Source of the DNA: a virus
IMG/VR virus record: IMGVR_UViG_3300043429_000671
Coordinates: 1-49,467 of that record
Direction: 5' to 3' (one strand)
DNA: 49,467 bases
Translations under genes and position numbers: made by a program
Shown: one piece after another, positions 25,524 through 42,663 of the stretch
Position numbering within the stretch: position 1 is the first letter of the stretch
How the letters are laid out: every line of letters starts with the position of its first letter
The notes under the pieces: generated by a model
The model's input: only the letters and a program-made list of their open reading frames with translations
Database searches by the model: none
Told to the model about the DNA's origin: nothing

Positions 25524-25540
25524 AAAATTATGGAGAAAAA

Positions 25541-25690
25541 ATGAAAACATTATCAGAATATTTTAATCTTCCACCAAATTCTTTTGCTACTTTTCTTAAT
25601 GCACAGGATATTGTAGAACAAGAAGAACAACGACAGTTGGAAAATAATATAGTTGAATATTTTCAGAAGAAAAAAGAAGAGTGTAAATAG
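25541..25690 (+). CDS. Hypothetical small acidic protein
   Basis: 49 aa (MKTLSEYFNLPPNSFATFL...), Glu/Gln-rich helix at the end. One of few genes with a clear Shine-Dalgarno, GGAG six bases before the ATG. Confidence 0.55.
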   Translation: MKTLSEYFNLPPNSFATFLNAQDIVEQEEQRQLENNIVEYFQKKKEECK

Positions 25691-25697
25691 AAGATAT

Positions 25698-25783
25698 GGT
25701 TCCTACCGAGGTTGGCTCCTCAAGTGCTCTTGAAAAGCACGGTGACTGAAAGGTTAATTGTTCGATGCGATTAGGAACCGCCA
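25698..25783 (+). tRNA. tRNA-Ser(TGA)
   Basis: Acceptor GGTTCCT/AGGAACC, discriminator G (Ser type), CCA encoded. Anticodon stem GTGCT/AGCAC, loop CTTGAAA; class II variable arm; T arm AATTG-TTCGATG-CGATT. Confidence 0.92.
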
Positions 25784-25796
25784 TTAAAAATAAAAT

Positions 25797-26264
25797 ATGA
25801 AAAAAACTCTAAATCTGCCTAGGATTGCCGTAAAGGAATCTAAATTAGATTGGAAAAGTTTTAAAACCGAAGTTGCATGGATTTCTATAGGGGAACCGGA
25901 AAAAAGTTTTCAACATATTCAAAATGAAACACTTGATAAATGTGCAAAACTTAAAATATGTTTTCACGATTTGAAAGAGGTTCATGAAGATGATAAAGCA
26001 AATGGGTTATTCCCACCTACACGAAAAATTGCACATAAAATTGTAAGGTTTATACTTGATAATAAAGATAAGAACATTATAGTAAATTGTGCGGCAGGAG
26101 TGTCTAGAAGTGGTGCGGTTTGTAAATTTTTAGAGGATGTGTTGGAATATAAGTGGATAGAGTTTGGAAAAAAGCTTGCATTACCGAACATGTTGTTGTA
26201 TGATCTGTTAGTAGAAGCTTATAATGAAAAAGCAAAAAGATTTTCACAAAAGGAAAGCCTATAA
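25797..26264 (+). CDS. Protein tyrosine/dual-specificity phosphatase
   Basis: 155 aa. VNCAAGVSRSGAV around residue 98 is the CX5R phosphatase loop (Cys98, Arg104, then Ser-Gly), with a helix after it and FHDLKEVHEDD upstream as candidate general-acid region. Asn replaces the usual His before the catalytic Cys. It probably dephosphorylates a host or phage protein, or RNA; the target is unknown. Overlaps the next gene by 41 bp. Confidence 0.8.
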   Translation: MKKTLNLPRIAVKESKLDWKSFKTEVAWISIGEPEKSFQHIQNETLDKCAKLKICFHDLKEVHEDDKANGLFPPTRKIAHKIVRFILDNKDKNIIVNCAAGVSRSGAVCKFLEDVLEYKWIEFGKKLALPNMLLYDLLVEAYNEKAKRFSQKESL

Positions 26265-26457
26265 TCTTGCGAAAAGATTAGGTTGGGAAGACCCTGTTCC
26301 TGATGCAACATTAAGAGCACTGATGGCAGGAACACCAGTAAAAGTCAAACAAACAAATGATCTTAAGAAAGATTTTGGTAGAAGCTGTTACGGAAAGTTT
26401 ACACATTTATCAAAAAGACATTATTTAGAAAGAGAAAGATGGAATGAAAGACCCTGA
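26224..26457 (+). CDS. Hypothetical basic protein
   Basis: 77 aa, Lys/Arg-rich (MKKQKDFHKRKAYNLAKRLGW...; ...KRHYLERERWNERP). Starts within the phosphatase gene in another frame. Possible nucleic-acid binder. Confidence 0.5.
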   Translation: MKKQKDFHKRKAYNLAKRLGWEDPVPDATLRALMAGTPVKVKQTNDLKKDFGRSCYGKFTHLSKRHYLERERWNERP

Positions 26458-26605
26458 TGATATTTTTGAAAAACATGAAAAAGCACAATCTTCTGGATAT
26501 TATGAAGATATTCGATGGAAAGAGGTTGCAGAGCTTAGAAAAGAAGGCAAAGATCTTTTGGCAAATGGTTTAGTTTTTTCTATAAGAGATGATTGGGGAA
26601 TATAA
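26444..26605 (+). CDS. Hypothetical small protein
   Basis: 53 aa (MKDPDDIFEKHEKAQSSGYY...). Helical, overlapping the previous gene by 14 bp. Unknown function. Confidence 0.45.
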   Translation: MKDPDDIFEKHEKAQSSGYYEDIRWKEVAELRKEGKDLLANGLVFSIRDDWGI

Positions 26606-26621
26606 GTAAGTAAAAATAAAA

Positions 26622-26700
26622 GGGGCTAGGGACTGCTTGGCGTGGTCGTTTCACTTGCAATGAAAATATCAGTAGGGTTCAAATCCCTATAGCTCCACCA
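26622..26700 (+). tRNA. tRNA-Ala(TGC)
   Basis: Acceptor GGGGCTA/TAGCTCC (one G-T), discriminator A, CCA encoded. Anticodon stem TTTCA/TGAAA, loop CTTGCAA; T loop TTCAAAT. Confidence 0.92.
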
Positions 26701-26705
26701 TACAA

Positions 26706-27422
26706 TTAGTTAGACTGGTCGGTATTATATCTATATTTTCTAGCACTATTTTTATTTAATGAGCCAAAGTTAGATGTAAGAGAATGGCAGTTAGGGCACA
26801 CCACTTCTAAATTATTCGGACTGCTATTTGCCGCATTTCCGTCAATATGATTTATTTGAAGAGGAATTCTACCTGTCGAAGGATGAACGGTACCCCAACC
26901 GCATTTCGAGCATTTATTATCCGCACATTCAAGAAGATATCTTCTTATAGAGGGTTTTATGGTTAAATATTTTTCACATCCAATCCCTGTAATATCTCCA
27001 TTTTTCCACATTTCAATATCTCTTGTATATCTATATTCGTGTTGACATTGTAATGAACAATATTGGATGCTATTTGAATGTAATATGTTGGGACAATTTT
27101 TGCAATATTTTACAGGTGTTCGATTTTTATTATTAAAAATGGCCGCACAAGACTGTGAACAGAAATTATTAATGGTTTTGGATGCAGAATTCCTCTTTCT
27201 AATCTCTATATTACAGTTTGCACATACACATGCTTTGGTGTTGATTAATGTTTTGTACGCACCTTGGCATTTTCTCGAACAGAATAATCGATTTATAGTT
27301 CCTTTAAATGATCGATATGCGTCGGAATTTGATATATGAAATATCTCCGAACAGTATTCACATTTACATGGTATGTTATTTTTATAGAGTTTTATGTCGT
27401 TTTGGGATATTTGGATATTCAT
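26706..27422 (-). CDS. HNH endonuclease with multiple zinc knuckles
   Basis: 238 aa. Four CxxC...C-type zinc elements in the first 130 residues (CEYCSEIF..CSRKC, CANC..CSQSC, CKNC..CSLQC) and then the HNH core: CSKCGWGTVHP, LQINHIDGNAANSSPNNLEVVCPNCHSLT. This type recurs in phages as a free-standing homing nuclease. It is reversed relative to the tRNA array and has its own late-type box 6 nt before the ATG. Confidence 0.88.
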   Translation of the reverse strand: MNIQISQNDIKLYKNNIPCKCEYCSEIFHISNSDAYRSFKGTINRLFCSRKCQGAYKTLINTKACVCANCNIEIRKRNSASKTINNFCSQSCAAIFNNKNRTPVKYCKNCPNILHSNSIQYCSLQCQHEYRYTRDIEMWKNGDITGIGCEKYLTIKPSIRRYLLECADNKCSKCGWGTVHPSTGRIPLQINHIDGNAANSSPNNLEVVCPNCHSLTSNFGSLNKNSARKYRYNTDQSN

Positions 27423-27428
27423 ATAAGA

Positions 27429-27436
27429 TACTTATT
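27429..27436 (-). promoter_or_regulatory. Late promoter box, AATAAGTA variant
   Basis: On the minus strand, 6 nt before the ATG of the HNH gene at 27422. Confidence 0.45.
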
Positions 27437-27504
27437 CGAATCGTTTAATAAACTCTGACATATAAGTTGCATTATAAGTCTATGTGTGGTAAATTGACCT
27501 CCAT

Positions 27505-27795
27505 ATGAATAATACAGAAGAGTTCTTTGATAAGAACAAAAATTATTATAAAGAAGGTGTGGCACTTATTTTTTATAAAAGGAAAAGAGTAGAAGGTGAT
27601 GATCCTATATTTTCTTATATAGCATTGGAAGATATAGAAGATTTTCTAGGATTTAAAATACATAGTGAAGATGATCCTATAGACGAATCTGTAATAGTTG
27701 AGAAGTATCCAATCAATTTAGATGACAGAGAGACTTCTTTAAAGCATATGAATACTATAGCTAATTCTTCAACATTTATAGAATGGATAGGATAA
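27505..27795 (+). CDS. Hypothetical acidic protein
   Basis: 96 aa (MNNTEEFFDKNKNYYKEGVALIF...), acidic middle (IHSEDDPIDESV). Stop overlaps the start of the next gene. No family recognised. Confidence 0.6.
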   Translation: MNNTEEFFDKNKNYYKEGVALIFYKRKRVEGDDPIFSYIALEDIEDFLGFKIHSEDDPIDESVIVEKYPINLDDRETSLKHMNTIANSSTFIEWIG

Positions 27796-27914
27796 TGAAA
27801 CCTTTAAGAGAAAGAATAATAATTGCGGAACGTCCTCCTGCATTTATATCTGATAGAGTATTACGAGTGTGGGGGCTGAAAGATTCGGGAATGGTTATAA
27901 TTAAAAAGAAATGA
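27795..27914 (+). CDS. Hypothetical basic peptide
   Basis: 39 aa (MKPLRERIIIAERPPAFISD...). Shares bases with both neighbours at start and stop, which supports its being translated. Confidence 0.45.
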   Translation: MKPLRERIIIAERPPAFISDRVLRVWGLKDSGMVIIKKK

Positions 27915-28060
27915 TACAATATTTATTGACTGATGCCTGGAGATATGCTATATTCGGAATTATTATAGGAGGGCTGTTGAAGACAACGGTCGCAACAGCT
28001 TTTCTATTAGCAATCCCCTTTATTTTATTAGGGTTTTTGATAACATTGATAACAGATTAA
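27911..28060 (+). CDS. Small membrane protein
   Basis: 49 aa, nearly all hydrophobic from residue 12 (YAIFGIIIGGLL..., FLLAIPFILLGFLITLI): two short helices. Starts in the stop of the preceding gene. Confidence 0.5.
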   Translation: MIQYLLTDAWRYAIFGIIIGGLLKTTVATAFLLAIPFILLGFLITLITD

Positions 28061-28065
28061 AAATT

Positions 28066-28154
28066 GGAAGATTAACTAGTCGGGGCACTAGAATTGTTTG
28101 CTAAACAATATGTACCTGAAAAGGTATGCGAGTCGGGATCGCAATCTTCCTCCA
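28066..28154 (+). tRNA. tRNA-Ser(GCT)
   Basis: Acceptor GGAAGAT/ATCTTCC, discriminator T (unusual for Ser), CCA encoded. Anticodon stem ATTGT/ACAAT, loop TTGCTAA; variable arm ACCT-GAAA-AGGT; T stem TGCGA/TCGCA with the odd loop GTCGGGA. Confidence 0.85.
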
Positions 28155-28162
28155 AACAAAAT

Positions 28163-28417
28163 ATGACAACATTTTTAATAATTCTTATATCATATATTCT
28201 TCTTACGATTATATCATTGTTCGTGGGAAAAAGCTGGCCGAAAATCGAAGAAGGCGTACCTCCTCCGCCGATCTGTATGAGTTTCATTCCCATAACTGCA
28301 ATTACAATTATACTTTGTGCAATATATATTTGCCTTATAGAGAAGTTCTCGACAAGAGTGGGTAAACACTGTTCTAAATATATAACTAAATTCAAGAACT
28401 GGTATTATAATGATTAA
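28163..28417 (+). CDS. Small two-helix membrane protein
   Basis: 84 aa from MTTFLIILISYILL; hydrophobic segments at about 2-20 and 42-62 with a Pro-rich loop (EEGVPPPPICMS) between. Start set after the tRNA. Unknown role. Confidence 0.55.
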   Translation: MTTFLIILISYILLTIISLFVGKSWPKIEEGVPPPPICMSFIPITAITIILCAIYICLIEKFSTRVGKHCSKYITKFKNWYYND

Positions 28418-28484
28418 AAAATTGAAAGATAAATATGGAACTAAATATATTATTTGCTTTTTTAATTATATGTGTATTTTATAA
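28410..28484 (+). CDS. Possible micropeptide
   Basis: 24 aa (MIKKLKDKYGTKYIICFFNYMC), overlapping the stop of the gene before it and, in another frame, the next micropeptide. Weak support. Confidence 0.25.
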   Translation: MIKKLKDKYGTKYIICFFNYMCIL

Positions 28485-28503
28485 AATTTTTAAAAATTGG
28501 TAA
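28435..28503 (+). CDS. Possible membrane micropeptide
   Basis: 22 aa (MELNILFAFLIICVFYKIFK), a single membrane helix. Its TAA shares bases with the next ATG, the same spacing as real genes here. Confidence 0.3.
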   Translation: MELNILFAFLIICVFYKIFKNW

Positions 28504-28604
28504 TGAAGAAGGTTAAAGAAACTATTGGACTTTGTTTATATCATATGTTAAGATGTATTCTTGCATATCTTACAAAGTTTAAAATAATTAAGAGAGAATA
28601 TTAA
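28503..28604 (+). CDS. Hypothetical small basic peptide
   Basis: 33 aa (MKKVKETIGLCLYHMLRCIL...). Amphipathic and basic; ends three bases before tRNA-Ile. Confidence 0.35.
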   Translation: MKKVKETIGLCLYHMLRCILAYLTKFKIIKREY

Positions 28605-28606
28605 TT

Positions 28607-28681
28607 GCTTCTGTGGCTTAATGGCTAAAGCGAAGGTCCGATAAACCTTATAAGATGGTTCGATTCCATCCAGAAGCACCA
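28607..28681 (+). tRNA. tRNA-Ile(GAT)
   Basis: Acceptor GCTTCTG/CAGAAGC, discriminator A, CCA encoded. Anticodon stem AAGGT/ACCTT, loop CCGATAA, where C replaces the almost universal T33. T loop TTCGATT. Confidence 0.9.
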
Positions 28682-28684
28682 AAT

Positions 28685-29176
28685 TTATTTTCCCAAATGT
28701 TTGGGACGACCAGTTGAATCTTTTAGACCATATCCAAAGGTGTTGTCGGTAGGATATCCATATGATTTTTGTCTTTCTACCTTTTTGTTCATGATACTAG
28801 CTGATTTACCTGGGTGTGCAAACCCTCTCTGAACTCTTTGTTTTTCTAATCGTTTCTTGGTCAACTCCCAAGGTTCTAATTCAGGAATCGGTTCTTTCTG
28901 AATATTTCTTCTTATGACATATTCCCATTCGGTTCCCATCAAAGAATGTCTATTTAAATTAAAATCGACATCTTCTCCATTTTCTTTTAAAAAATCGATA
29001 ATAGGTTTGATATACTCTTGCGCAAAATTAACATTTTTCCCCATAGATCTATCTTTTATTTTTATCCAACCATTTCTATCCAGAAGATTGCGTAAATTAT
29101 CTATATTCAATTCATATTCACCTATGAATGGTCTTGATTCTGTGATATATAAAGAATATAGTTCGTTGAAAGTCAT
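28685..29176 (-). CDS. Hypothetical late phage protein
   Basis: 163 aa. N-terminus MTFNELYSLYITE is of the kind found on small virion or head proteins of T4-like phages; the C-terminus is Gly/Lys-rich (NTFGYGLKDSTGRPKHLGK). It has the best late promoter in the window, an exact TATAAATA ending 5 nt before the ATG. Family not recognised. Confidence 0.65.
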   Translation of the reverse strand: MTFNELYSLYITESRPFIGEYELNIDNLRNLLDRNGWIKIKDRSMGKNVNFAQEYIKPIIDFLKENGEDVDFNLNRHSLMGTEWEYVIRRNIQKEPIPELEPWELTKKRLEKQRVQRGFAHPGKSASIMNKKVERQKSYGYPTDNTFGYGLKDSTGRPKHLGK

Positions 29177-29181
29177 AACAA

Positions 29182-29189
29182 TATTTATA
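29182..29189 (-). promoter_or_regulatory. T4 late promoter, exact TATAAATA
   Basis: Minus strand, 5 nt before the ATG at 29176; the only exact T4 consensus in the set. Confidence 0.75.
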
Positions 29190-29196
29190 CAATAAT

Positions 29197-29424
29197 ATGA
29201 ATCCAGTAGGTCTAAATAATATCAAGAATTTGAATACAAAACAATTAGAATCATTATTACATTCTAGAGAACAAGCTGCTTTCTATTCGACTATTGATTT
29301 TCCAAAAACAAAGGAGGATTTTGCTCATAATAAAAGTATTTCAGATGGCATAAAAGAGATAAAAGATGAAATTTCTTTAAGAAATATGGTTGCAGTCTTT
29401 GGAAAACGTGATATAGTGTTGTAA
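29197..29424 (+). CDS. Hypothetical small helical protein
   Basis: 75 aa (MNPVGLNNIKNLNTKQLESLLHSREQAAF...). Divergent from the late gene at 29176, only 20 bp away. No family recognised. Confidence 0.6.
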   Translation: MNPVGLNNIKNLNTKQLESLLHSREQAAFYSTIDFPKTKEDFAHNKSISDGIKEIKDEISLRNMVAVFGKRDIVL

Positions 29425-29435
29425 GTAATTAAAAT

Positions 29436-29525
29436 GCGTTAGCGGCGAAGTTGGAGTGTGTCGCGTCTGGCTGTAACCCAGAAACATAAGAACCTTAGTA
29501 GATTCGAATTCTACCTAACGCACCA
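29436..29525 (+). tRNA. tRNA-Tyr(GTA)
   Basis: Acceptor GCGTTAG/CTAACGC, discriminator A, CCA encoded. Anticodon stem TCTGG/CCAGA, loop CTGTAAC; class II variable arm as expected for Tyr; T arm GTAGA-TTCGAAT-TCTAC. Confidence 0.93.
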
Positions 29526-29535
29526 AATTTTAAAA

Positions 29536-29625
29536 GGAAGGTAAACTAGTTGGCTAAGTAGTTTGTTTGGAAAACAAATACACTTCAAAAAGGTGTCCAG
29601 AGTTCGAATCTCTAACTTTCCGCCA
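29536..29625 (+). tRNA. tRNA-Ser(GGA)
   Basis: Acceptor GGAAGGT/ACTTTCC, discriminator G, CCA encoded. Anticodon stem TTTGT/ACAAA, loop TTGGAAA; class II variable arm; T loop TTCGAAT. Confidence 0.92.
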
Positions 29626-29633
29626 TTTAAAAG

Positions 29634-29708
29634 GTCTCTTTAGTGAAATGGATATCACGCGAAACTACGAATTTCGCATTTTGGGTTCGAGTCCCAAGGG
29701 AGGCACCA
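29634..29708 (+). tRNA. tRNA-Arg(ACG)
   Basis: Acceptor GTCTCTT/GGGAGGC with several G-T pairs, discriminator A, CCA encoded. Anticodon stem CGAAA/TTTCG, loop CTACGAA; A34 would need host TadA to become inosine. T arm TTGGG-TTCGAGT-CCCAA. Confidence 0.9.
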
Positions 29709-29715
29709 GTGAAAT

Positions 29716-29794
29716 GCAGGCGTATCGGCTCTCGCTTCTAACGAGTTAAAACCGTAATGGATATATGGGGGTTCAAGTCCCTTCGTCTGTACCA
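29716..29794 (+). tRNA. tRNA-Arg(TCT)
   Basis: Acceptor GCAGGCG/CGTCTGT, discriminator A, CCA encoded. Anticodon loop CTTCTAA on a stem with one T-T mismatch. T loop TTCAAGT. Reads AGA/AGG, codons much used in this AT-rich genome. Confidence 0.87.
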
Positions 29795-29797
29795 TAA

Positions 29798-30103
29798 ATG
29801 ATACCGAAGGAACAGTCTTATAAAACTATAGAAGATATTATACAAAATATCCAAGAGCATGTAGTAGGTAAAGTCGGATATGTCCGAAGAATCGGACCAT
29901 TCGATTTTGCTCCGAGAATCGAAATGACTATAAATTCTGAACCAATTTCTATATTTCTTTCAGTCTATCTTATAAATGACGTTTCACAGTTTAAGATGGA
30001 AATAGTTCATGCTGTATTATACGAAATCCGCAGATTGAATCCTGATTATTTAAAACCCGATTATAAACATCCCTCTGATGATAAACAATTTCGAAGTTCA
30101 TAG
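29798..30103 (+). CDS. Hypothetical protein
   Basis: 101 aa (MIPKEQSYKTIEDIIQNIQEHVVGKVGYV...), alpha/beta. Overlaps the next gene by 26 bp. No family recognised. Confidence 0.6.
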   Translation: MIPKEQSYKTIEDIIQNIQEHVVGKVGYVRRIGPFDFAPRIEMTINSEPISIFLSVYLINDVSQFKMEIVHAVLYEIRRLNPDYLKPDYKHPSDDKQFRSS

Positions 30104-30296
30104 AACACATTGTTGTAAGGTTTGTGGCTGTAAATATGGTGACAACGATTGTCCCGTGACGAATAATATAGTAAAACCTGCCCATGAATGTTGGGAATGT
30201 GAACAAACCGATTATCATGGATGTGGTGAATATATCAGAGAAATAGATAAGTTGGAGACTTTGATAAAAGATATTTTAAAGATAACAGCATTATGA
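30078..30296 (+). CDS. Small Cys-rich zinc protein
   Basis: 72 aa. CCKVCGCKYGDNDCP near residue 12 and CWECEQTDYHGCGEY near 38 make two metal-binding clusters. Coupled to YopX gene by overlap. Confidence 0.6.
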   Translation: MINNFEVHRTHCCKVCGCKYGDNDCPVTNNIVKPAHECWECEQTDYHGCGEYIREIDKLETLIKDILKITAL

Positions 30297-30721
30297 GAGA
30301 GTTAAAATTTAGAGTATGGGATAAACAATTTTCCCATTTTTGGAACGAGGGTGTGGGGATGGATATAAAGAGAATCGCATTCAATTTTTATGAATCTCTA
30401 TTTGAAGATAATGAACGATTTGAATTTCATCAATATATCGGTATAAAAGATTCTACTGGTAAGGAAATCTATGAAGGAGACATAGTCGAGAATACTGTAT
30501 GTTATGAAGAGTATTGCTCGCCTGCCGTAGTTGCAATGAGTGTTTATGAACAATTACAATGGGCATTGTTCAGAAAAATAGACAATCCTGAAATCGATTA
30601 TACTCCTATTCAGCAAACTTTTAATGGTGTAAAATTATACGAAGAATTGCCCATTGTTTATAGTAGTTATGGTTACAAAGTTATAGGAAACATTTACGAG
30701 AATATAGATATATTTAAATGA
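30293..30721 (+). CDS. YopX-family phage protein
   Basis: 142 aa. MRELKFRVWDKQ at the start, FHQYIGIKDSTGKEIYEGDIVE in the centre and GYKVIGNIYENIDI at the end are the family's defining segments. YopX proteins are widespread in phages and lack a settled function. Overlaps its neighbours on both sides. Confidence 0.9.
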   Translation: MRELKFRVWDKQFSHFWNEGVGMDIKRIAFNFYESLFEDNERFEFHQYIGIKDSTGKEIYEGDIVENTVCYEEYCSPAVVAMSVYEQLQWALFRKIDNPEIDYTPIQQTFNGVKLYEELPIVYSSYGYKVIGNIYENIDIFK

Positions 30722-31497
30722 AAGAGTTAAATACGGAAACCAATATTGGATGTCAAGGTGAATGGATGAGAAAAACCGCATTCGTTTCAGGACATATCAG
30801 AATTTCACAAGAAGAATTTGATACACATTACATTCCTCTCTTAGATAAAGCTATTGTAGAAAACCATAAATTTCTTATTGGTGATGCGAATGGCGTAGAT
30901 GCAATGGCACAGAAATATCTAGAAGAGAAAGGTGTTACTGATATAACAGTGTATCATATGTTCACTTCTCCTAGAAATACAGTGCCATCTGCAAAGTTGA
31001 TGGGCGGATTTGAGGACGATGATTCCCGTGATGCGGCGATGACACAGGCTAGCACTTATGATATTGCATGGGTTCGTAAGGGTAAAGAAAAATCAGGAAC
31101 CCAGAAAAATTTGGATAGACGCAAATCACCAACGGCAATATTAGTAGAATCTCAGGAACATTGGATAAAACCTGTACCTACTCGAAAATCTATCAACTCT
31201 CTCAACTTTGAGACTGCGACTTCGGAAGAGTTATATGAATTTTTTCGGGCACCACCGAAAGATGATCCCCGTTGGCCTAAAACCGGTGATAAGGTAAAAT
31301 TCCTTACGGCTGAAGGGCGATTCTTTCCGCATTATACTAATGTTATTGCAAATGCGAAAGAAAAGCTACGAATGGGAGAAATTTATACAGTTAGTAGATG
31401 CGAAGCATATTCTTCTTGGTGTGCAGTATGGCTAGAAGGTTTCGGAGATGATGAATTATTTCATCTTTCTATGTTTGAATTTCCTATAAAGGACTGA
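30718..31497 (+). CDS. SLOG-type nucleotide-binding protein with a C-terminal extension
   Basis: 259 aa. KTAFVSGHIRISQEEF, then FLIGDANGVDAMAQKYL and AWVRKGKEKSGTQKNL resemble the Rossmann-like SLOG fold of YspA/DprA-related proteins, which sense or process nucleotide-derived ligands. The last 80 residues form a separate beta domain (PKTGDKVKFLTAEGRF...). Another possible start is the ATG at 30766, which places the domain at the N-terminus. A role in nucleotide signalling or defence is only inferred. Confidence 0.7.
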   Translation: MKELNTETNIGCQGEWMRKTAFVSGHIRISQEEFDTHYIPLLDKAIVENHKFLIGDANGVDAMAQKYLEEKGVTDITVYHMFTSPRNTVPSAKLMGGFEDDDSRDAAMTQASTYDIAWVRKGKEKSGTQKNLDRRKSPTAILVESQEHWIKPVPTRKSINSLNFETATSEELYEFFRAPPKDDPRWPKTGDKVKFLTAEGRFFPHYTNVIANAKEKLRMGEIYTVSRCEAYSSWCAVWLEGFGDDELFHLSMFEFPIKD

Positions 31498-31506
31498 ATT
31501 ATTATG

Positions 31507-31514
31507 GGTAAATA
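31507..31514 (+). promoter_or_regulatory. Late promoter box
   Basis: GGTAAATA ending exactly 5 nt before the ATG at 31520. Confidence 0.55.
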
Positions 31515-31519
31515 ACTAT

Positions 31520-32221
31520 ATGTTATTGACTCATAGAAGAAAAGCATTTAGACCCGTTGAAGGTGTCGTAGAAAGTACCACTGATCCTTTTTTTGCTAAT
31601 GTTTCGGTTCTTTTACATTTAAATGGAACCAATGGTTCAACTACTATTGTAGACTCTGGGCCAGGGGCGAGAACATTTACCGCATTCGGTAATGCACAAC
31701 TAAGCACAACTAATCCTAAGTACGGAACGGCGTGTTTATTACTTGATGGAAATGGTGATTACCTATCATCTTCTGCCAATACTGCATACGATTTTGGTGT
31801 TGGCGATTTTTCTATCGAATTCTGGGTTAACTTCACCGGAACTGGAACACAATATATAATGGATTATGCGGCGGCAAATACAAGTGTCATCGCCATAACT
31901 CCAAGTTCGGGTAATGTGTTTGTGTATTGTCAAGGTAGTTTTTGTATAAACTCTGGTTCCACACCATTTACAACATCACAATGGTATTTTATACAGTTAA
32001 TTCGTTCAGGAGGAACATGGACTATATTCAGAGATGGTGTACAATATGCACAGGCCACAGGCCAAACTACGAGAACATTTGGAAGCTCTGCATTAGCCCT
32101 TTTAGTAGGTATAGCAGGAAATGGAGCTGCTCCTACTAATGGTCGAATAGATGAATTTCGAATGACGAAGGGGACCGCAAGGGCAGCTTCCCTTCCCATC
32201 TCCGCTTTCCCTGATAGTTGA
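31520..32221 (+). CDS. LamG/concanavalin-like virion surface protein
   Basis: 233 aa. Residues about 25-225 follow the LamG layout: VLLHLNGTNGSTTIVDSG, YGTACLLLDGNGDYL, FSIEFWVNFTG, WYFIQLIRSGGTWTIFRDG and a closing GRIDEFRMTKGTARA. Such domains decorate phage capsids or fibres and bind glycans. Its late box and the following fibre-associated gene support a virion role. Confidence 0.85.
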   Translation: MLLTHRRKAFRPVEGVVESTTDPFFANVSVLLHLNGTNGSTTIVDSGPGARTFTAFGNAQLSTTNPKYGTACLLLDGNGDYLSSSANTAYDFGVGDFSIEFWVNFTGTGTQYIMDYAAANTSVIAITPSSGNVFVYCQGSFCINSGSTPFTTSQWYFIQLIRSGGTWTIFRDGVQYAQATGQTTRTFGSSALALLVGIAGNGAAPTNGRIDEFRMTKGTARAASLPISAFPDS

Positions 32222-32227
32222 TAAATA
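32220..32227 (+). promoter_or_regulatory. Late promoter box
   Basis: GATAAATA ending 5 nt before the ATG at 32233; it overlaps the stop of the LamG gene. Confidence 0.6.
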
Positions 32228-32232
32228 ATATA

Positions 32233-32724
32233 ATGACGCACTTAAAACTTAATAATGAACATAGGTACGAATCTTCTATTCCTATAATAGATAATTTAAT
32301 TCGAAAAGGTTGGACTATTGTTGCCGAACCCCCAGATCCTCCGACTTACGATGCGAGCATTCATAAATTAATATACAATGCATCTACCAATGATTATTCT
32401 GTAATCGAACTCTCTTCTGAAGAATTGGCTAATAATGCAAGAGCTGAATTAGTGATGTTTGTAGAAAGTAAAATAGAAGAAGGATTCTTAGTAGAACCTG
32501 AAAATTTCAGATTAAATCTTCGAGATTCAGACCGTGCAATATTCGCACAGATGTTAGCACTAGTTAAAGAAGCACTAGACCTAAATTTTATAAACGATGA
32601 TACATTACATACTATCACAGATAAAGAAGGTATTAAAAGAGAAGTCACAACATTGAGATTTCGCCAGATAATGGTAGCATATGGATTTTATTATAAAGGT
32701 CTATGGGATATGTTAGTGAGTTGA
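32233..32724 (+). CDS. Probable tail-fibre-associated protein
   Basis: 163 aa from MTHLKLNN, chosen because the late box ends 5 nt before it; an in-frame ATG at 32218 would lie over the box. The text (DASIHKLIYN, EELANNARAEL, a long helix, then TTLRFRQIMVAYGFYY) resembles DUF4376-like proteins that follow fibre genes. Identity is tentative. Confidence 0.65.
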   Translation: MTHLKLNNEHRYESSIPIIDNLIRKGWTIVAEPPDPPTYDASIHKLIYNASTNDYSVIELSSEELANNARAELVMFVESKIEEGFLVEPENFRLNLRDSDRAIFAQMLALVKEALDLNFINDDTLHTITDKEGIKREVTTLRFRQIMVAYGFYYKGLWDMLVS

Positions 32725-32746
32725 TCAAATTATTTCATCTTTCGTA

Positions 32747-32775
32747 TTGACAAAGACGAAAATGTAGTGTAAGAT
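32747..32775 (+). promoter_or_regulatory. Sigma-70-type promoter before tRNA-Asp
   Basis: TTGACA, 17-nt spacer, TAAGAT at 32770-32775. Probably drives the tRNA group 32836-33476. A hairpin (AACGCCT with AGGTGTT) follows before the first tRNA. Confidence 0.65.
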
Positions 32776-32835
32776 ATAAGTAGTTTACAAACCTTGAACG
32801 CCTCTTAACAATGCGCAATTTTTAAGGTGTTTTAT

Positions 32836-32911
32836 GGAGCCGAAGACAAACAGCAGAGTCGCAATCCTGTCAAGATTGAGTTAGTGGGGGCAGCACCCAT
32901 CGGTTCCGCCA
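32836..32911 (+). tRNA. tRNA-Asp(GTC)
   Basis: Acceptor GGAGCCG/CGGTTCC, discriminator G, CCA encoded. Anticodon stem CAATC/GATTG, loop CTGTCAA. T stem GTGGG/CCCAT with the odd loop GGCAGCA. Confidence 0.87.
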
Positions 32912-32924
32912 GATAATTTAAAAT

Positions 32925-33002
32925 GCCGTTGTGGTGTAATTGGTAAACACACATGTCTTAGAAACATGTTATCTGTGGGTTCGACTCCCACCAATGGTAC
33001 CA
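32925..33002 (+). tRNA. tRNA-Leu(TAG) with a short variable region
   Basis: Acceptor GCCGTTG/CAATGGT, discriminator A, CCA encoded. D stem GTGT/ACAC; anticodon stem CATGT/ACATG, loop CTTAGAA; T arm GTGGG-TTCGACT-CCCAC. The variable region is only 6 nt (TTATCT), whereas Leu tRNAs are class II. Confidence 0.87.
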
Positions 33003-33011
33003 AATCGCCGC

Positions 33012-33080
33012 AAGGCTAGGTGTGTTATAACCACCGAAAGAAGAGAGATAAATTTAGATGTGGTTCGATTCCCTAGCCTT
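33012..33080 (+). tRNA. Degenerate tRNA-like element
   Basis: Perfect nine-base end pairing AAGGCTAGG/CCTAGCCTT and a T-loop-like TTCGATT, but the T stem is poor, no anticodon arm is visible, and AACCAC near 33030 pairs instead with GTGGTT near 33060. No CCA. Probably a decayed tRNA. Confidence 0.35.
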
Positions 33081-33135
33081 GGTAGGCATTTAAATTCAGA
33101 ACGTTCGTGAAATCCTTCGAATAAGTATTTTATAC

Positions 33136-33210
33136 GCCTATATCCCAATTGGTAGAGGAGAATATCTCAAAAATATTTTGTTCAGAGTTCGAATCTCTGT
33201 ATAGGTACCA
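33136..33210 (+). tRNA. tRNA-Leu(CAA) with a short variable region
   Basis: Acceptor GCCTATA/TATAGGT, discriminator A, CCA encoded. Anticodon stem AATAT/ATATT, loop CTCAAAA; T arm CAGAG-TTCGAAT-CTCTG. Variable region 5 nt, again class I rather than class II. An AATAAGTA late-type box lies at 33120-33127. Confidence 0.87.
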
Positions 33211-33230
33211 AACTTTTATAAGTAATAAAT

Positions 33231-33304
33231 GCGGGGTTGTTGTAACGGTAGCGAACTGGTTTTACATTCCAGAAGAAAGTGTTCGATTCACTTACCCCGT
33301 ACCA
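33231..33304 (+). tRNA. tRNA-Val(TAC)
   Basis: Acceptor GCGGGGT/ACCCCGT, discriminator A, CCA encoded. Anticodon stem CTGGT/TCCAG with a T-T closing pair, loop TTTACAT. T arm AAGTG-TTCGATT-CACTT. Confidence 0.88.
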
Positions 33305-33398
33305 ATTTTAGAAATTAAAAACTTCTAAAAGATACGCAAACTCTTATGATTTTGCTATGGTTTCTTTTTCCGTGTACCCGATAAACACGGAATATAAT

Positions 33399-33476
33399 GG
33401 CGGCTGGCGTGGCTAGTGAAACGGAGAATCTGCAAAATTCTTATTAAACGGCAGGGTGCGATCCCCTGAGTCGCCT
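33399..33476 (+). tRNA. tRNA-Cys(GCA)
   Basis: Acceptor GGCGGCT/AGTCGCC, discriminator T as Cys tRNAs require, no encoded CCA. Anticodon stem AGAAT/ATTCT, loop CTGCAAA. T stem CAGGG/CCCTG with loop TGCGATC. Upstream (33307-33330 and 33379-33392) two plain hairpins lie between it and tRNA-Val. Confidence 0.88.
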
Positions 33477-33487
33477 CATATAATTTG

Positions 33488-33721
33488 ATGAAATTAGAAT
33501 TAGAAGGAAGTGAAGAGTTTCTTTCATCCATATTAGTGATGATGTCATTTATACAGAAAAGTATAGACAAAAAAACTCCAATAAAATTAGATGTATCAAT
33601 TGATAGTTGTGAACCACTATCAATAATATATAAAGACGGTCGTAAATCTACCAAGTTAGACGAGATGCAACTATATGAAAACGTAAATCTTGCCAACGGT
33701 ACATTTAAATTCCACATATAA
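33488..33721 (+). CDS. Hypothetical small protein
   Basis: 77 aa (MKLELEGSEEFLSSILVMMSFIQKS...). Helical start, beta end. First gene of the translation-factor segment. No family recognised. Confidence 0.6.
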   Translation: MKLELEGSEEFLSSILVMMSFIQKSIDKKTPIKLDVSIDSCEPLSIIYKDGRKSTKLDEMQLYENVNLANGTFKFHI

Positions 33722-33738
33722 TTACGTAAGTAATATGT

Positions 33739-33954
33739 ATGAAAACGGAATGCGTTCAGGTTAAGGGAGAAGTTACTAAAATTCTTCCTAGCGGTTTTTA
33801 TCTTATTGTCCTAAAAAAGGTGAATGTAGAAGTTCTTGCTTATTTGTCTGGAAAGATGACAAAGCATAAAATAAGACCTGAAGTAGGTGATGAAGTTGTT
33901 CTAGAAATGTCACCTACAGATGTTAAAAGGGGAAGAATTGTTAAAAGAATGTAG
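33739..33954 (+). CDS. infA: Translation initiation factor IF-1
   Basis: 71 aa, the same length as bacterial IF-1, one OB fold. Recognisable segments: VQVKGEVTKILPSGFYLIV, VLAYLSGKM, then GDEVVLEMSPTDVKRGRIVKR, matching the family's HISGKMR and GDKV.VE.SPYDL..GRI..R. IF-1 sits in the ribosomal A site and tunes start selection with IF-2 and IF-3. The SGKM loop that contacts 16S rRNA is kept. Its neighbours include TilS and many tRNAs. Confidence 0.95.
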   Translation: MKTECVQVKGEVTKILPSGFYLIVLKKVNVEVLAYLSGKMTKHKIRPEVGDEVVLEMSPTDVKRGRIVKRM

Positions 33955-33983
33955 TTGAATCGATAGTTTTCTTAGGGTATATT
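33955..33983 (+). promoter_or_regulatory. Sigma-70-type promoter
   Basis: TTGAAT at 33955, 17-nt spacer, TATATT at 33978-33983, then 7 nt to the ATG at 33991. Confidence 0.55.
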
Positions 33984-33990
33984 TAATCCT

Positions 33991-34332
33991 ATGAAAATTG
34001 AAAACTCAGATATTCTAACTCAAAAACTTCCTCGCCGTTTCCGCAATAAACTAGTAAGAGCACTCCGTAGTGGACGATATACACAAACTAATGGGGTGAT
34101 GCGTGATCCATTGGAAAATGCTTATGATGTTCTAGGTGTAGCCCATCGTATTGCAGGAGTCCCCAAACAATCTATTACTAAGATGAGAGGTGCTCCACAA
34201 GGAAAGCAGTATAATTTCTTACCAAAGGTTCTTACTATGAAAGATACAGAAGTTACGCAAAAGCTTATGGCTTTAAATGATAAAGGTCTTTCGTTTAGGT
34301 GGATCGCTTCCCATCTTGAAAATTGTATGTAA
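33991..34332 (+). CDS. Hypothetical basic protein
   Basis: 113 aa, starting MKIENSDILTQKLPRRFRNKLVRALRSG, likely two helical domains; GLSFRWIASHLE near the end resembles an HTH helix. Might bind nucleic acid. Own promoter; a terminator follows. Confidence 0.6.
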   Translation: MKIENSDILTQKLPRRFRNKLVRALRSGRYTQTNGVMRDPLENAYDVLGVAHRIAGVPKQSITKMRGAPQGKQYNFLPKVLTMKDTEVTQKLMALNDKGLSFRWIASHLENCM

Positions 34333-34424: not shown

Positions 34425-35174
34425 ATGAATCTCAAAGAATATTATCTACTCAAAGAACGTGCATATTTTATAGACCTTGCCACTCTATCTGAAGAAATTA
34501 TCAACCAACTTCAAGAGAAACTAGCAAAGAAAAAGTCCATTCGTTCTGGAGATAAGATCACTGTTAAAATTGCAGATGCATATGAATTAGATATAAAACT
34601 CTATAAAGGAAAAAGCCATGCCGCAAGAGATGCAGAGCATAACGGTCCAGCAGTCGAAGAAGAATCTTCTGCAATGTATTTTCCTGCAACAGATGAATCG
34701 AATGGACGAATTGAAATATATGTTAACTCTTCTAAGAAATCACAGAGTTATTATAAAGAGCGTAAATTTGAAGATTTTATAAATAAGAGTCTTCCTAAAT
34801 ATATTAAAGATATTCTGCGACATGAAATTGCACATGCATATGAAGATATAGTATCTGATGCAGGAAAGTACAAACAAACCCAAAATACTACAAGAAAGGG
34901 ATATTTTAATTCAGATGATGAAGTAAATGCATATTTCATGCAGTGGTTCCCAGGAGAACTTCAAAATAATAAAATAGCACAATATCATTTGTCAGCAGCG
35001 CGTAATGCGACAGATGATAGGATTAAAACTGATCATATAAATCGTGCTGCAAAAGTATTACTGAGTAAGTTATCTGAATTGCCTTGGGTAGCCGAATTGG
35101 ACGAGAAGAATAAAAAGTGGTTAATAAAAACAACCTATACTTCTTTACAGGAGTTACTTGACAGGTCGAAATAA
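34425..35174 (+). CDS. Zinc metallopeptidase-like protein
   Basis: 249 aa. HEIAHAYED at residues 133-141 is an HExxH zinc motif with an acidic residue shortly after. The N-terminus MNLKEYYLLKERA is of the short helical type seen on T4-like virion proteins, so it may be packaged or act in maturation. No homologue named with confidence. The end of the gene contains the promoter of the TilS gene. Confidence 0.7.
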   Translation: MNLKEYYLLKERAYFIDLATLSEEIINQLQEKLAKKKSIRSGDKITVKIADAYELDIKLYKGKSHAARDAEHNGPAVEEESSAMYFPATDESNGRIEIYVNSSKKSQSYYKERKFEDFINKSLPKYIKDILRHEIAHAYEDIVSDAGKYKQTQNTTRKGYFNSDDEVNAYFMQWFPGELQNNKIAQYHLSAARNATDDRIKTDHINRAAKVLLSKLSELPWVAELDEKNKKWLIKTTYTSLQELLDRSK

Positions 35175-35185
35175 AGTCCTATAGT
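35158..35185 (+). promoter_or_regulatory. Sigma-70-type promoter of the TilS gene
   Basis: TTGACA at 35158, 16-nt spacer, TATAGT at 35180-35185, 7 nt before the ATG at 35193. Confidence 0.65.
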
Positions 35186-35192: not shown

Positions 35193-35849
35193 ATGCGGTT
35201 CATTCCACAGATTCTCAAGTTAGCCAACAATAAAGTTACCGTTGCATGTAGCGGTGGCATAGATAGTCTTGCTATTGCAGCTTTTCTAAAGATTTATTAC
35301 CCCAGGATTAATCTACAATGTTTTCATTTCAATCATAATCTTCGTGAACAAAATGAGATTATGTCTAATTCGGTTTTTACCTTTTGTAAAGATTTTAATA
35401 TTAGGTGGGAAGAATCTTATAGAAATGGTAATTACGATGACACCGATCCTAAAGACGAATCTACCCTTAGAGCATTGCGCTATAAAGCAATGGCAGGTCT
35501 GGGATATGTAATCACAGGTCATCATATCGACGATGCATGTGAGAATTATATGTTTAATTGTTTGAATGGGGTTCCTGAATATCTTCCGATTCCGTTGGTT
35601 ACTGAATATAAAGATTTTGATCTTACTGTTATTCGCCCCTTTATTCTGAATGAAAAGGAAGAGTTTCGTGCATTCGTAAAAGATTATGATTTGGAACAAT
35701 ACGTTGTAGAAGATGAAACTAATACTGATGAAGGTTATCGCAGAAATTGGCTAAGAAATAATTTAATTCCACAGATTTCCGAGAAGGGATATAATTTAAA
35801 AACTATTGTCAAGAAACGTTATGAAAAATACATTAAAGAAAACTATTAA
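35193..35849 (+). CDS. tilS: tRNA(Ile)-lysidine synthetase, short form
   Basis: 218 aa. PP-loop SGGIDS at 20-25, then FHFNHNLREQ, GHHIDDACE at 109-117, RPFILNEKEEF, DETNTD and RRNWLRNNLIP, all TilS signatures. TilS converts C34 of the CAU tRNA-Ile to lysidine so that it reads AUA. It is the catalytic N-terminal domain only; the C-terminal domains of the long bacterial form are absent. A GTG at 35184 is in frame but lies in the -10 box. Two CAT tRNAs of the phage (14855, 14936) are obvious substrates. Confidence 0.93.
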   Translation: MRFIPQILKLANNKVTVACSGGIDSLAIAAFLKIYYPRINLQCFHFNHNLREQNEIMSNSVFTFCKDFNIRWEESYRNGNYDDTDPKDESTLRALRYKAMAGLGYVITGHHIDDACENYMFNCLNGVPEYLPIPLVTEYKDFDLTVIRPFILNEKEEFRAFVKDYDLEQYVVEDETNTDEGYRRNWLRNNLIPQISEKGYNLKTIVKKRYEKYIKENY

Positions 35850-36087
35850 GAATATTATTATAGAATATTTCGATAAACATTGTAAAAAGCTTGATGAGGA
35901 CTATTGGGATTATAGTGAATGGGAGGATTTGTTAGATTTTAAGAAATTCGTAGATACTGTCCCAAATATAGTGTTAGAAGCGAATAAAAGAAGAACCATC
36001 TTCACTATAAAATTTGTAGAAAATGGTGAACGGGTAAAGTTTAGTTTAAGGGAGTATAACAAATTAATATCAGATCTATCAGTATGA
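35821..36087 (+). CDS. Hypothetical small protein
   Basis: 88 aa from MKNTLKKTIKNIIIEYF, overlapping the TilS gene by 29 bp in another frame. Helical then beta. No family recognised. Confidence 0.6.
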   Translation: MKNTLKKTIKNIIIEYFDKHCKKLDEDYWDYSEWEDLLDFKKFVDTVPNIVLEANKRRTIFTIKFVENGERVKFSLREYNKLISDLSV

Positions 36088-36311
36088 AAGGTTGTGTAAC
36101 TATAGAAGAATCTCTACAGAGTTTAATAGATGCTGCGAAATTATACTCTAAGAAAAACGAAGGGGAAGGTCCACATAGTTTTTATCCTACGATGTATCAT
36201 TATACAATGATACGATATCTAAAATTAGTCAAAAGAAAAGCTAAATTCTTCTTTGATCCTGATGACCGAAGATTTGGTGGTCCTACTTTGAATTGGGATG
36301 TAGACGAATAA
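36084..36311 (+). CDS. Hypothetical small protein
   Basis: 75 aa (MKGCVTIEESLQSLIDAAKLYSKKN...). Coupled by ATGA to the gene before; a bidirectional terminator follows. No family recognised. Confidence 0.6.
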   Translation: MKGCVTIEESLQSLIDAAKLYSKKNEGEGPHSFYPTMYHYTMIRYLKLVKRKAKFFFDPDDRRFGGPTLNWDVDE

Positions 36312-36314
36312 AAT

Positions 36315-36350
36315 AAAAAAACCCGCTAATTTCTTAGCGGGTTTTTTTAT
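36315..36350. terminator. Bidirectional terminator
   Basis: ACCCGCTAA/TTAGCGGGT with A-run before and T-run after, between convergent genes. Confidence 0.9.
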
Positions 36351-36359
36351 TATTTAAAT

Positions 36360-37040
36360 TTAGCGTTGTGGTATATTAACAGGTGGACAGCTTCCACCCG
36401 TTCCAGTGAGAATTTTAGCTTCGTATGCTTGGAACACATTATCAATTTCTTGTTGTGCTCCTGCATTAGAATCAAGAACACCAGTTTCATATGCATGTGC
36501 AACTCTCCAGTATTGATACTGGAACGCTACCTCGAACTCTGTAAGGTCGTTTCCTTCGATGTTGTAGGTGATTTGTCCTACATTCTGAGGGTAGACACCA
36601 TGAAGGCGATAAACACGCATAATGTCGCAATTAGGAGCAAGTATGGCAAGGTCTATAGTTGTGTTGTCGCATGGGAAACCTGTTCCACATGATGTTTCAT
36701 CACTAATAGTTGCAAAACTCCAACGTTCAAGAGCATTACGCACAAGATAATCCCCAGGAGTTCTGAATGTTATAGACCACGGGTTAGGTGTGTAACGGGC
36801 CATCCCTTGAATGTTGATAGGAAACCCTTGATAAGGCACTTCGATATTCTGAATTTCTCTTCCAGGAACAGAGAGGGTCTTTGCATAAACATGGCCCCCA
36901 AGTCCAGCGGGTTTTTCAATAAGTTCACGATACACATAATCGGGAACATTGCTCATGTTTAAAATTCGAATCTGCCATGATCTCGAAAAATCATGTTGTT
37001 GGAAAACTTCTCTTGCGTTTTTAATACTGCCTAGTGCCAT
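36360..37040 (-). CDS. 19: Tail tube protein, T4 gp19-like
   Basis: 226 aa from MALGSIKNAREV, just over the 163-aa T4 gp19. Family text: SRSWQIRILNM, AKTLSVPGREI, then PYQGFPINIQGMARYTPNPWSITFRTPGD and VYRLHGVYPQNVGQITYN. The last third adds an insert with Cys and a tail. A late box GATAAATA ends 5 nt before this ATG, excluding the upstream in-frame ATG at 37064. Tail tube subunits stack inside the contractile sheath. Confidence 0.9.
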   Translation of the reverse strand: MALGSIKNAREVFQQHDFSRSWQIRILNMSNVPDYVYRELIEKPAGLGGHVYAKTLSVPGREIQNIEVPYQGFPINIQGMARYTPNPWSITFRTPGDYLVRNALERWSFATISDETSCGTGFPCDNTTIDLAILAPNCDIMRVYRLHGVYPQNVGQITYNIEGNDLTEFEVAFQYQYWRVAHAYETGVLDSNAGAQQEIDNVFQAYEAKILTGTGGSCPPVNIPQR

Positions 37041-37045
37041 GTAAT

Positions 37046-37053
37046 TATTTATC
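37046..37053 (-). promoter_or_regulatory. T4-type late promoter box
   Basis: GATAAATA on the minus strand, 5 nt before the tail tube ATG. Confidence 0.65.
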
Positions 37054-37076
37054 ACTAAAAACACAAATCTATAAAA

Positions 37077-37115
37077 TAAAAAACCCGTTAGAATTTTCTA
37101 ACGGGTTTTTTATTT
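37077..37115. terminator. Bidirectional-looking terminator
   Basis: AACCCGTTAGA/TCTAACGGGTT with flanking A and T runs, between the tail tube gene and the next minus-strand group. Confidence 0.9.
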
Positions 37116-37157
37116 TATTCAGTCCATTCTCGAATACTGTAAGAAACTAGTCCTGCT

Positions 37158-37481
37158 TCATGCTAAGAATTCGTATGTTAGTTCTTCTGTATTATTCGAT
37201 TCTTCTGTACTTCCTCGAAGGGAATACTTATAAGGAATTCCACCAGTTTTCTCTATACAAGTCTTGATGTCTCCACTGACATTATTAATATAAGTCAGTA
37301 AATCACCATGTGAAATATCTTTTTCTTCAATATTTTTCCCTGTTAATTGACTCATATTATTAACGAATTTCAATGCATTACATAGTGCTACCCATTTTGC
37401 GGCTTCATCTAGCGACATTTCGGCAGCGGGTAGAATTTTATATTTATCGGATAATTTGGATACGTTCGTTTCGGTTTTCAT
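37158..37481 (-). CDS. Hypothetical protein
   Basis: 107 aa (MKTETNVSKLSDKYKILPAAEMSLDEAAKW...), helical. Overlaps the upstream gene by 38 bp. No family recognised. Confidence 0.6.
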   Translation of the reverse strand: MKTETNVSKLSDKYKILPAAEMSLDEAAKWVALCNALKFVNNMSQLTGKNIEEKDISHGDLLTYINNVSGDIKTCIEKTGGIPYKYSLRGSTEESNNTEELTYEFLA

Positions 37482-41582: not shown

Positions 41583-41768
41583 ATGCATTGGAAATATACA
41601 AAGGAGGGGATTCCTTATCTCGAATGTGATAGTATCCCTACGCCCTCTTCTCCGCCTCCGAGCGAAAATTTTAAAAGAATGCTCAGAGACTTCCTACAAA
41701 GAATGAAAGATAATAATGTAAAAGTTGTTATAAGCAAACCATTTTTATATCAAAAAAATGACAATTAA
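41583..41768 (+). CDS. Hypothetical small protein
   Basis: 61 aa with a Pro/Ser stretch (IPTPSSPPPSENF). Overlaps the clamp-loader gene by 11 bp. Confidence 0.5.
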   Translation: MHWKYTKEGIPYLECDSIPTPSSPPPSENFKRMLRDFLQRMKDNNVKVVISKPFLYQKNDN

Positions 41769-42663
41769 TCAAGTATGGACTATCAAATATAGTCCGAAAA
41801 CAATAGAAGATATCCTCCTAAATGAGGAAGATAAAAGCTTTTTCACCAATTTAAAGGAAATACCTAATAATCTCCTATTTACAGGAAGTCCGGGAACGGG
41901 AAAAAGTTCAATGGCGAAAATTCTTGCTGATAAGTTTTCGCCCAACTCTTATATGATTATCAATGCATCTGAGCAAGGTACCATTGATGTATTACGAGAG
42001 AAAATCCAAGGATATATTGAAATCGCAAGTATTGATGGTAATCCTAAGCTAGTCATTCTTAATGAGGTGGATGGTGCAAGCACGGTATTTCAACAAGCAT
42101 TGCGCGTAACCCTTGAAGAATATTTGGATGAGGTTAAATTCATTCTCACGGGTAATTATCGTTCGAAAATCATCGAAGCGATTCGGTCACGTTGTCAAGA
42201 ATTTACATTCAATGTTCCTGAGGGTGATGTTCTTCGAAGAGTTGCAACAATTCTGAAAGCAGAGAATATTGTAGTTGGAGAGGATCAGATATCAAATGTT
42301 CGACTTCTAGTAAAGACTCATTTTCCTGATATTCGTAAGACTATTAACGAACTACAAAGGAATTGCTCTACAGGAAAATTCATATATAAGTTCAAAAAAG
42401 ATACTGGAGTTGCATTGTTAATTAAGACAAAGCTGAAAGCGAAGGAAGATGTTTTTGCTATTCGTAAATTTGTTGTAGAAAATTCTGATAAATTTGCAAA
42501 CAATTATCATCAATTGATGAAATCTTTGTTTGACTTATACGTTGCAGAGTGTAATACTGTTGCAGTGCTATTGATTTCAGAATATATGTATCGCGATGCA
42601 TTTGTTGCTGATACAGAAATCAACTTTAGTGCATTATTATTCAACCTAGGACAGAAATTGTGA
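41758..42663 (+). CDS. 44: Sliding-clamp loader ATPase, T4 gp44-like
   Basis: 301 aa, near T4 gp44 (319). AAA+ motifs: Walker A GSPGTGKSS at 43-51, Walker B VILNEVDGAS around 99-107, sensor 1 TGNYRSKII at 131-139 and the arginine-finger SRC at 144-146. It loads the sliding clamp for DNA replication. The small subunit gp62 is not recognisable in the next gene. Overlaps its neighbours. Confidence 0.93.
   Translation: MTINQVWTIKYSPKTIEDILLNEEDKSFFTNLKEIPNNLLFTGSPGTGKSSMAKILADKFSPNSYMIINASEQGTIDVLREKIQGYIEIASIDGNPKLVILNEVDGASTVFQQALRVTLEEYLDEVKFILTGNYRSKIIEAIRSRCQEFTFNVPEGDVLRRVATILKAENIVVGEDQISNVRLLVKTHFPDIRKTINELQRNCSTGKFIYKFKKDTGVALLIKTKLKAKEDVFAIRKFVVENSDKFANNYHQLMKSLFDLYVAECNTVAVLLISEYMYRDAFVADTEINFSALLFNLGQKL

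Follow-up and report, generated by a model that had tools for sequence, protein, structure and literature searches.

Why should a phage carry its own translation initiation factor IF-1? Initiation factors encoded by phages have so far been recorded largely as entries in gene catalogues. The question is posed here by a gene in a 49,467-nucleotide stretch of viral DNA (hereafter, the window), which is a 49-kb piece of a T4-like phage with 34% GC. Assignment to the T4-like phages comes from PHROG profile matches to a tail tube protein (PHROG 45) and a gp44-type clamp loader (PHROG 168), plus a 5′–3′ exonuclease. Two more IMG/VR contigs represent the same phage (>99.9% identical) and carry an identical IF-1 open reading frame (ORF); one contributes an extra 47 kb, and a combined stretch of 96.9 kb was taken for analysis.

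A phage IF-1 as such is already published and frequent in IMG/VR, and there is no novelty in it. The translation genes of huge phages include IF1 and IF3 (Al-Shayeb et al. 2020, PMC7162821), Lak phages, Sinorhizobium phage Phosso, and two genomes of uncultured huge phages also have an IF-1 gene, and at least 573 IMG/VR stretches encode one, some of which may be bacterial. GenBank matches labelled 'Acinetobacter phage' lie in a bacterial-looking chromosome—with infA beside leu and tru genes—and were excluded from the phage count. What is new, judging from the sequences, is a single IF-1 clade that is kept throughout one phage family and lacks both Arg41 and Tyr60.

The IF-1 gene and its neighbourhood

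A complete IF-1 of 71 residues is encoded, from ATG to stop, within the cluster of features listed below. The ORF matches the Pfam eIF-1a/IF-1 profile PF01176 (E = 2e-14; 53.3 bits, cut-off 30.2) and the NCBIfam infA profile TIGR00008, in the latter case barely above the cut-off (61.6 versus 61.15 bits), and its top PDB sequence matches are all IF-1. An AF2 model, for which the input was an 8-sequence family alignment, displays the OB fold of IF-1 type over the full length (pLDDT 83.8) and superposes on 30S-bound IF-1 of E. coli (9fco) with a TM score of 0.93 and an rmsd of 1.1 Å. The claim of the sequence-only reading that this is a full-length IF-1 with an intact SGKM loop is thereby confirmed, and the gene is a genuine IF-1. 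The SGKM loop reaches helix 44 in 30S–IF1 structures, and the phage protein would presumably bind the 30S subunit as well.

Fold, length, SGKM, and GRI are common to the phage protein and bacterial infA products (E. coli, T. thermophilus, Verrucomicrobia). It differs from them in lacking Arg41 and Tyr60 (residue numbers follow E. coli, with Met1), both of which are replaced by Thr, and it has one additional residue in the β2–β3 turn relative to E. coli and Thermus IF-1. Position 41 directly follows SGKM and is Arg in nearly all IF-1s.

14936–33477, + strand: tRNA-rich region with 18 tRNA genes (ARAGORN) and one more (Rfam)
20039–20491, + strand: YqeY-like protein of the translation-related gene set (PF09424, E = 5e-40)
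33488–33721, + strand: short ORF that separates tRNA-Cys from IF-1, with an ATG 10 nt past the tRNA 3′ end (the ORF tool gives a TTG start at 33485)
33717–33722, + strand: TATAAT, 16 nt upstream of the IF-1 ATG and the sole −10-like box in its vicinity (from sequence)
33739–33954, + strand: IF-1 (infA-like), 71 residues, SGKM kept, Arg41 to Thr and Tyr60 to Thr (from profiles, alignment, and model)
33991–34332, + strand: conserved gene adjoining IF-1 in L021, L182, and L184–L189
34425–35174, + strand: conserved gene with an HExxH-like motif (HEIAH), at or near IF-1 in L021, L175–L179, and L087
35193–35849, + strand: TilS (tRNA-Ile lysidine synthetase) N-terminal domain protein (TIGR02432, 106 bits; PF01171)
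36360–37040, − strand: T4-like tail tube protein (PHROG 45, E = 7e-27)
41758–42663, + strand: T4 gp44-like clamp loader, a marker of T4-like phage (PHROG 168, E = 1e-62)

The large tRNA array reported near IF-1 is indeed present, with the 18 ARAGORN tRNAs at 14.9–33.5 kb. IF-1 had also been placed beside TilS: the two share a cluster but are not adjacent, since the genes at 33991–34332 and 34425–35174 intervene. The first of these has a predicted leaderless promoter (TTGAAT at 33955–33960, TATATT at 33978–33983, 7 nt to the ATG). For TilS, boxes TTGACA (35158–35163) and TATAGT (35180–35185) end 7 nt before the ATG at 35193, and therefore the true start is probably this ATG rather than the GTG at 35184.

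The Rfam tRNA (21375–21433, + strand), which was missed by ARAGORN, directly precedes a gene at 21444. The CAT tRNA at 14936–15010 was considered as an initiator and rejected, as it lacks initiator features (its acceptor end is paired and it has no GGG/CCC stem); no fMet tRNA was found among the phage tRNAs.

Besides its 18 tRNAs and TilS, the phage encodes YqeY, GluRS, Pth2, and an RNA ligase. This gene set favours the main rival to a leaderless role, namely that IF-1 is a general translation supplement that sustains initiation under host shut-down with no leaderless preference, much as huge phages carry IF1 and IF3 with other translation genes (PMC7162821). The supplement is a serious contender, though less likely than not.

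Start sites in the phage and its family

The idea that this is a genome of apparently leaderless genes could be examined in the phage and then across its family; gene starts were the analyst's own calls, with ATG preferred. Shine-Dalgarno motifs at −18 to −4 occur before 6 of 132 genes of this phage, exactly as often as at −45 to −31 (6/132). TTGAC starts 33–39 nt before the ATG in 12 of 125 genes, versus 1.3% of other ATGs (P = 4e-7), and is accompanied by a −10-like box 5–10 nt before the ATG. A translation signal would not be expected to lie as far as 33 nt upstream, and the two boxes at this spacing imply that transcription starts at or beside the ATG.

A second promoter type points the same way. 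T4 late promoters have the form TATAAATA with TAAATA as the core, and TAAATA lies exactly 11 nt before the ATG (5 nt between) in seven genes of this phage; at 7–17 nt, there are 21 listed cases (including a few genes with two boxes) versus 0.6 expected per 6-nt bin. With T4 late geometry, TAAATA at 11 nt would put the +1 on the A of the ATG. Examples of both types are as follows:

37046–37051, − strand: TAAATA 5 nt before the tail tube ATG, predicted +1 on the A of the ATG
29182–29189, − strand: T4-late-like TATAAATA, 5 nt upstream of the start codon of 28685–29176 (−)
15575–15580, − strand: TAAATA 5 nt upstream of the start codon (ATG) of 15012–15569 (−)
31509–31514, + strand: TAAATA 5 nt upstream of the start codon (ATG) of 31520–32221 (+)
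24782–24809, + strand: sigma70-like promoter TTGACA-16-TAATTT, ending 5 nt upstream of the start codon (ATG) of 24815–25051
21841–21869, + strand: sigma70-like promoter TTGACA-17-TAGAAT, ending 5 nt upstream of the start codon (ATG) of 21875–22483

The pattern extends to the family, for which ten stretches with 339 genes were pooled (two of the stretches, L186 and L187, being close kin), and the spacing peaks become sharper. Shine-Dalgarno motifs do not rise above background (11/339 genes versus 20/339), TTGAC is found at 33–39 nt before 31 genes, 13 of them at 33 nt (background around 0.6 per position), and TAAATA before 16 genes at 11 nt and 12 at 12 nt (background 0.4 per position). Tests free of gene calls agree: the TTGACA-to-ATG offset of 33 was seen 15 times in the relatives versus 2.5 expected (P = 4e-8), and the TAAATA-to-ATG offset of 11 was seen 16 times versus 3.7 expected (P = 1.5e-6). 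A promoter scan that allowed loose mismatches was too noisy to give a usable signal. That nearly all family genes are leaderless is thus supported as a prediction, with 5′ ends placed from sequence by both promoter types, and the premise appears much better founded than the sequence-only reading could have known.

IF-1 itself is less tidy. Its TATAAT box implies a leader of about 9 nt and no Shine-Dalgarno motif precedes it, and its predicted start is thus not a textbook leaderless one, which counts against a leaderless role for the protein.

Similar boxes with a predicted +1 on the start codon characterise both the T4 late promoters and the leaderless genes of Actinobacteria and Deinococcus, in which TANNNT sits some 10 nt upstream of the start codon. 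In T4 itself, however, TAAATA at 11–12 nt precedes 0 of 51 genes in the stretch sampled, whereas in this family such spacing is the rule and applies to both promoter types.

tRNA genes may supply further near-leaderless messages. In the relatives, 19 of 56 tRNAs have an ORF ATG 0–17 nt after the 3′ end, versus 7% at random positions, and the IF-1 ATG itself directly follows a tRNA in L021 (by 7 nt) and in L184–L189 (by 13 nt). The arrangement resembles the tRNA punctuation of mitochondria, in which a gene begins immediately past the 3′ end of a tRNA, and processing would give near-leaderless messages; however, mitochondria lack IF1, the processing is putative here, and only 2 of the 18 tRNAs of this phage are so placed. 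Starts of this kind were located in L021 (696–10001), L178 (131–1977), and L184–L189.

The IF-1 clade and the probable host

The family was found using the three closest IF-1s as queries and then the neighbouring tail-tube protein. IF-1 adjoins the tail-tube gene cluster in every family fragment spanning the locus (the window, L021/L183, L182, L184–L189, L197, L175, L176, L177, L178, L179, and L087); L194, which ends before the site, and L198, which is only a distant tail-tube relative, were left out of this count. The family IF-1s form one clade (SH-aLRT 99.7) in a tree that has few columns and of which the family fork alone is relied upon. Among themselves they are 37%–51% identical, and the tail-tube proteins 45%–63%.

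Position 41 sets the clade apart. Arg occupies it in all 31 Verrucomicrobia and all 22 Planctomycetes sampled and in 30 of 33 IF-1s from other viruses—83 of 86 in all—but in none of nine family members, which have Ser (six), Thr, Asn, or Lys (one each). Tyr60 behaves likewise, being found in 28/31 Verrucomicrobia, 22/22 Planctomycetes, and 32/33 other viral sequences, against 0/9 in the family (eight Thr, one Ile). The huge-phage, Lak, and Phosso IF-1s belong to the same protein family and also stand alongside tRNAs and tRNA-related enzymes; they differ in having Arg (or Lys) at 41 and Tyr60, are 35%–41% identical, and fall outside the clade.

Could the gene be a chance capture or a decaying copy without function? 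The TIGR00008 score, barely over its cut-off, is what such a copy might give, but the gene is intact, of near-constant length, and in the same neighbourhood across a family whose tail tubes have diverged so far, and this explanation is scarcely credible. IF-1 appears instead to be a core, inherited gene of the family. Rather better, though still improbable, is repurposing of a small RNA-binding OB-fold protein—IF1 being one—for RNA chaperoning, transcription antitermination, or a block of host initiation. The fast sequence change within the family would suit it; against it, Gly38, Lys39, Met/Leu40, and Arg66 are retained in all nine family IF-1s tabulated and Gly65 in the eight aligned, as if the ribosome site were used.

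The likely host group was approached through a PSCyt2/PSD1 gene (DUF1549/DUF1553), chosen as the query for the bacterial genome scan because the broad IF-1 alignment was too degenerate. The gene lies at the window end (47818–49467, + strand) and continues in G001, where it and the gene that follows it, which by eye we take to be DUF1501-like, occupy L008:11403–13109 and 9975–11273 (− strand). A PSCyt2/PSD1 gene followed by a DUF1501-like one is a pair typical of Planctomycetes and Verrucomicrobia and is unusual phage cargo; we know of no phage role for it. The gene is conserved in the family (54%–59% in L178, L182, and L183), and the closest bacterial relatives found, only distant at 36%–43%, are from Planctomycetes and Verrucomicrobia, so that the phage host probably belongs to this (PVC) group. 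Within it, the nearest sampled bacterial IF-1 is verrucomicrobial (53% identical), and Tyr22, present in 29/31 Verrucomicrobia and 8/9 family members where all 22 Planctomycetes have Phe, hints at a verrucomicrobial source of the family IF-1.

These observations bear on host mimicry, whereby the phage would be leaderless as its host is and IF-1 would be a captured host gene with a sequence that tracks the host ribosome, with no hijack of start selection. The PVC-type neighbours and Tyr22 accord with it, as does a survey that lists Planctomycetes—represented by one species only—among phyla with few Shine-Dalgarno genes and with leaderless or S1-type biases (PMC5397173). Against it, though weakly, 20 sampled PVC stretches mostly use Shine-Dalgarno motifs (around 0.2–0.6 of genes in most) and have no leaderless spacing peak, and none of 53 sampled PVC IF-1s lacks Arg41. 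Mimicry is on balance unlikely.

IF-1 and leaderless translation

A link between IF-1 and leaderlessness had been suggested from this one genome, and that interpretation is only partly supported: the family has both IF-1 and leaderless signals, but other IF-1 phages mostly use Shine-Dalgarno motifs. In 27 other IF-1 phage stretches, these precede 36% of 517 genes versus 5% background. A general association was thus sought but not found, and IF-1 does not mark leaderless phages in general. The same figures support the supplement explanation introduced above, which does not, however, predict that residues 41 and 60 should diverge alongside the family's loss of Shine-Dalgarno motifs.

Late promoters give a more graded picture. 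Among other IF-1 phages, 43 genes have one at leaderless distance, only one of these with a Shine-Dalgarno motif, and 55 have one of the leadered class, 32 with the motif. Leaderless and leadered late promoters stand at 21:93 in HTVC008M-like phages, 43:55 in other IF-1 phages, and 32:2 in this family, a rise in the leaderless share that is a suggestive lead among groups of related phages representing no independent events. No IF-1 was found in the HTVC008M-like phages, despite their leaderless-type late promoters. Full leaderlessness together with IF-1 was seen in a single lineage and so is not independently replicated; a causal link is a plausible hypothesis, and the controls argue against a general rule. 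In both the other IF-1 phages and the HTVC008M-like phages, T4-late-like promoters about 11 nt before the ATG are almost never accompanied by a Shine-Dalgarno motif, and late genes without leaders may be common among T4-like phages at large. A different IF-1 phage, L093 (a 20-kb IMG/VR stretch), has Shine-Dalgarno motifs in 2/33 genes versus 2/33 background; its IF-1 has SPLD in place of SPYD and a C-terminal extension.

The explanation we tentatively prefer, while giving it a little less than an even chance, is that a functional phage IF-1 tops up or replaces that of the host and favours 5′-terminal AUG starts. The protein would bind the host small subunit on its A-site face, either substituting for host IF-1 or supplementing it. 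Given the role of Arg41 suggested by 30S–IF1 work, losing this residue beside the SGKM loop could loosen the part that IF-1 plays in start discrimination. With family messages that would mostly begin at, or a few nucleotides from, the AUG and have no Shine-Dalgarno motif, high levels of an IF-1 without Arg41 would let ribosomes start more readily on 5′-terminal AUGs, and phage messages would be favoured. IF1 assists IF2 and IF3 in a general way and is not specific to leaderless messages, and this weighs against the preferred explanation, as do the Shine-Dalgarno use of most IF-1 phages outside the family and the HTVC008M-like phages just described. One review states that leaderless translation is stimulated by IF1 whatever its concentration and does not require the anti-Shine-Dalgarno sequence (PMC9031893). 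Phage messages starting at the AUG would thus gain from more IF-1, the more so if host protein synthesis is off. Both the start-site bias and the leaderless 5′ ends are what we infer. For IF1 Arg40/Arg69 mutants, as for leaderless phage transcriptomes, literature searches found nothing usable.

A stronger version, in which an IF-1 altered at Arg41 and Tyr60 is specialised for leaderless translation and host ribosomes are retuned to a wholly leaderless family, is possible but doubtful. The family pairs the absence of Shine-Dalgarno motifs and predicted promoter +1 starts with an IF-1 clade whose ribosome-facing loop is changed, and this makes for a clear prediction. If it is true, the family would offer a natural case of ribosomes being switched between messages with and without leaders, together with a small protein for testing how IF-1 sets start-site choice.

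The phage also carries genes of other kinds. An adenylosuccinate synthetase-like gene (45873–47024, + strand; PF00709), of PurA or PurZ type, is matched in L182 too. A protein encoded at 6679–7737 (− strand) has terminal PTTTEEPTTTA-type repeats, and the array aligns in several registers between the same-phage contigs and may vary in length. In G001, an NMN adenylyltransferase/Nudix-like gene (profile match; L007:15513–16475) lies near a gene at 35839–37263 that looks NAMPT-like by eye, and the two are a possible NAD salvage pair.
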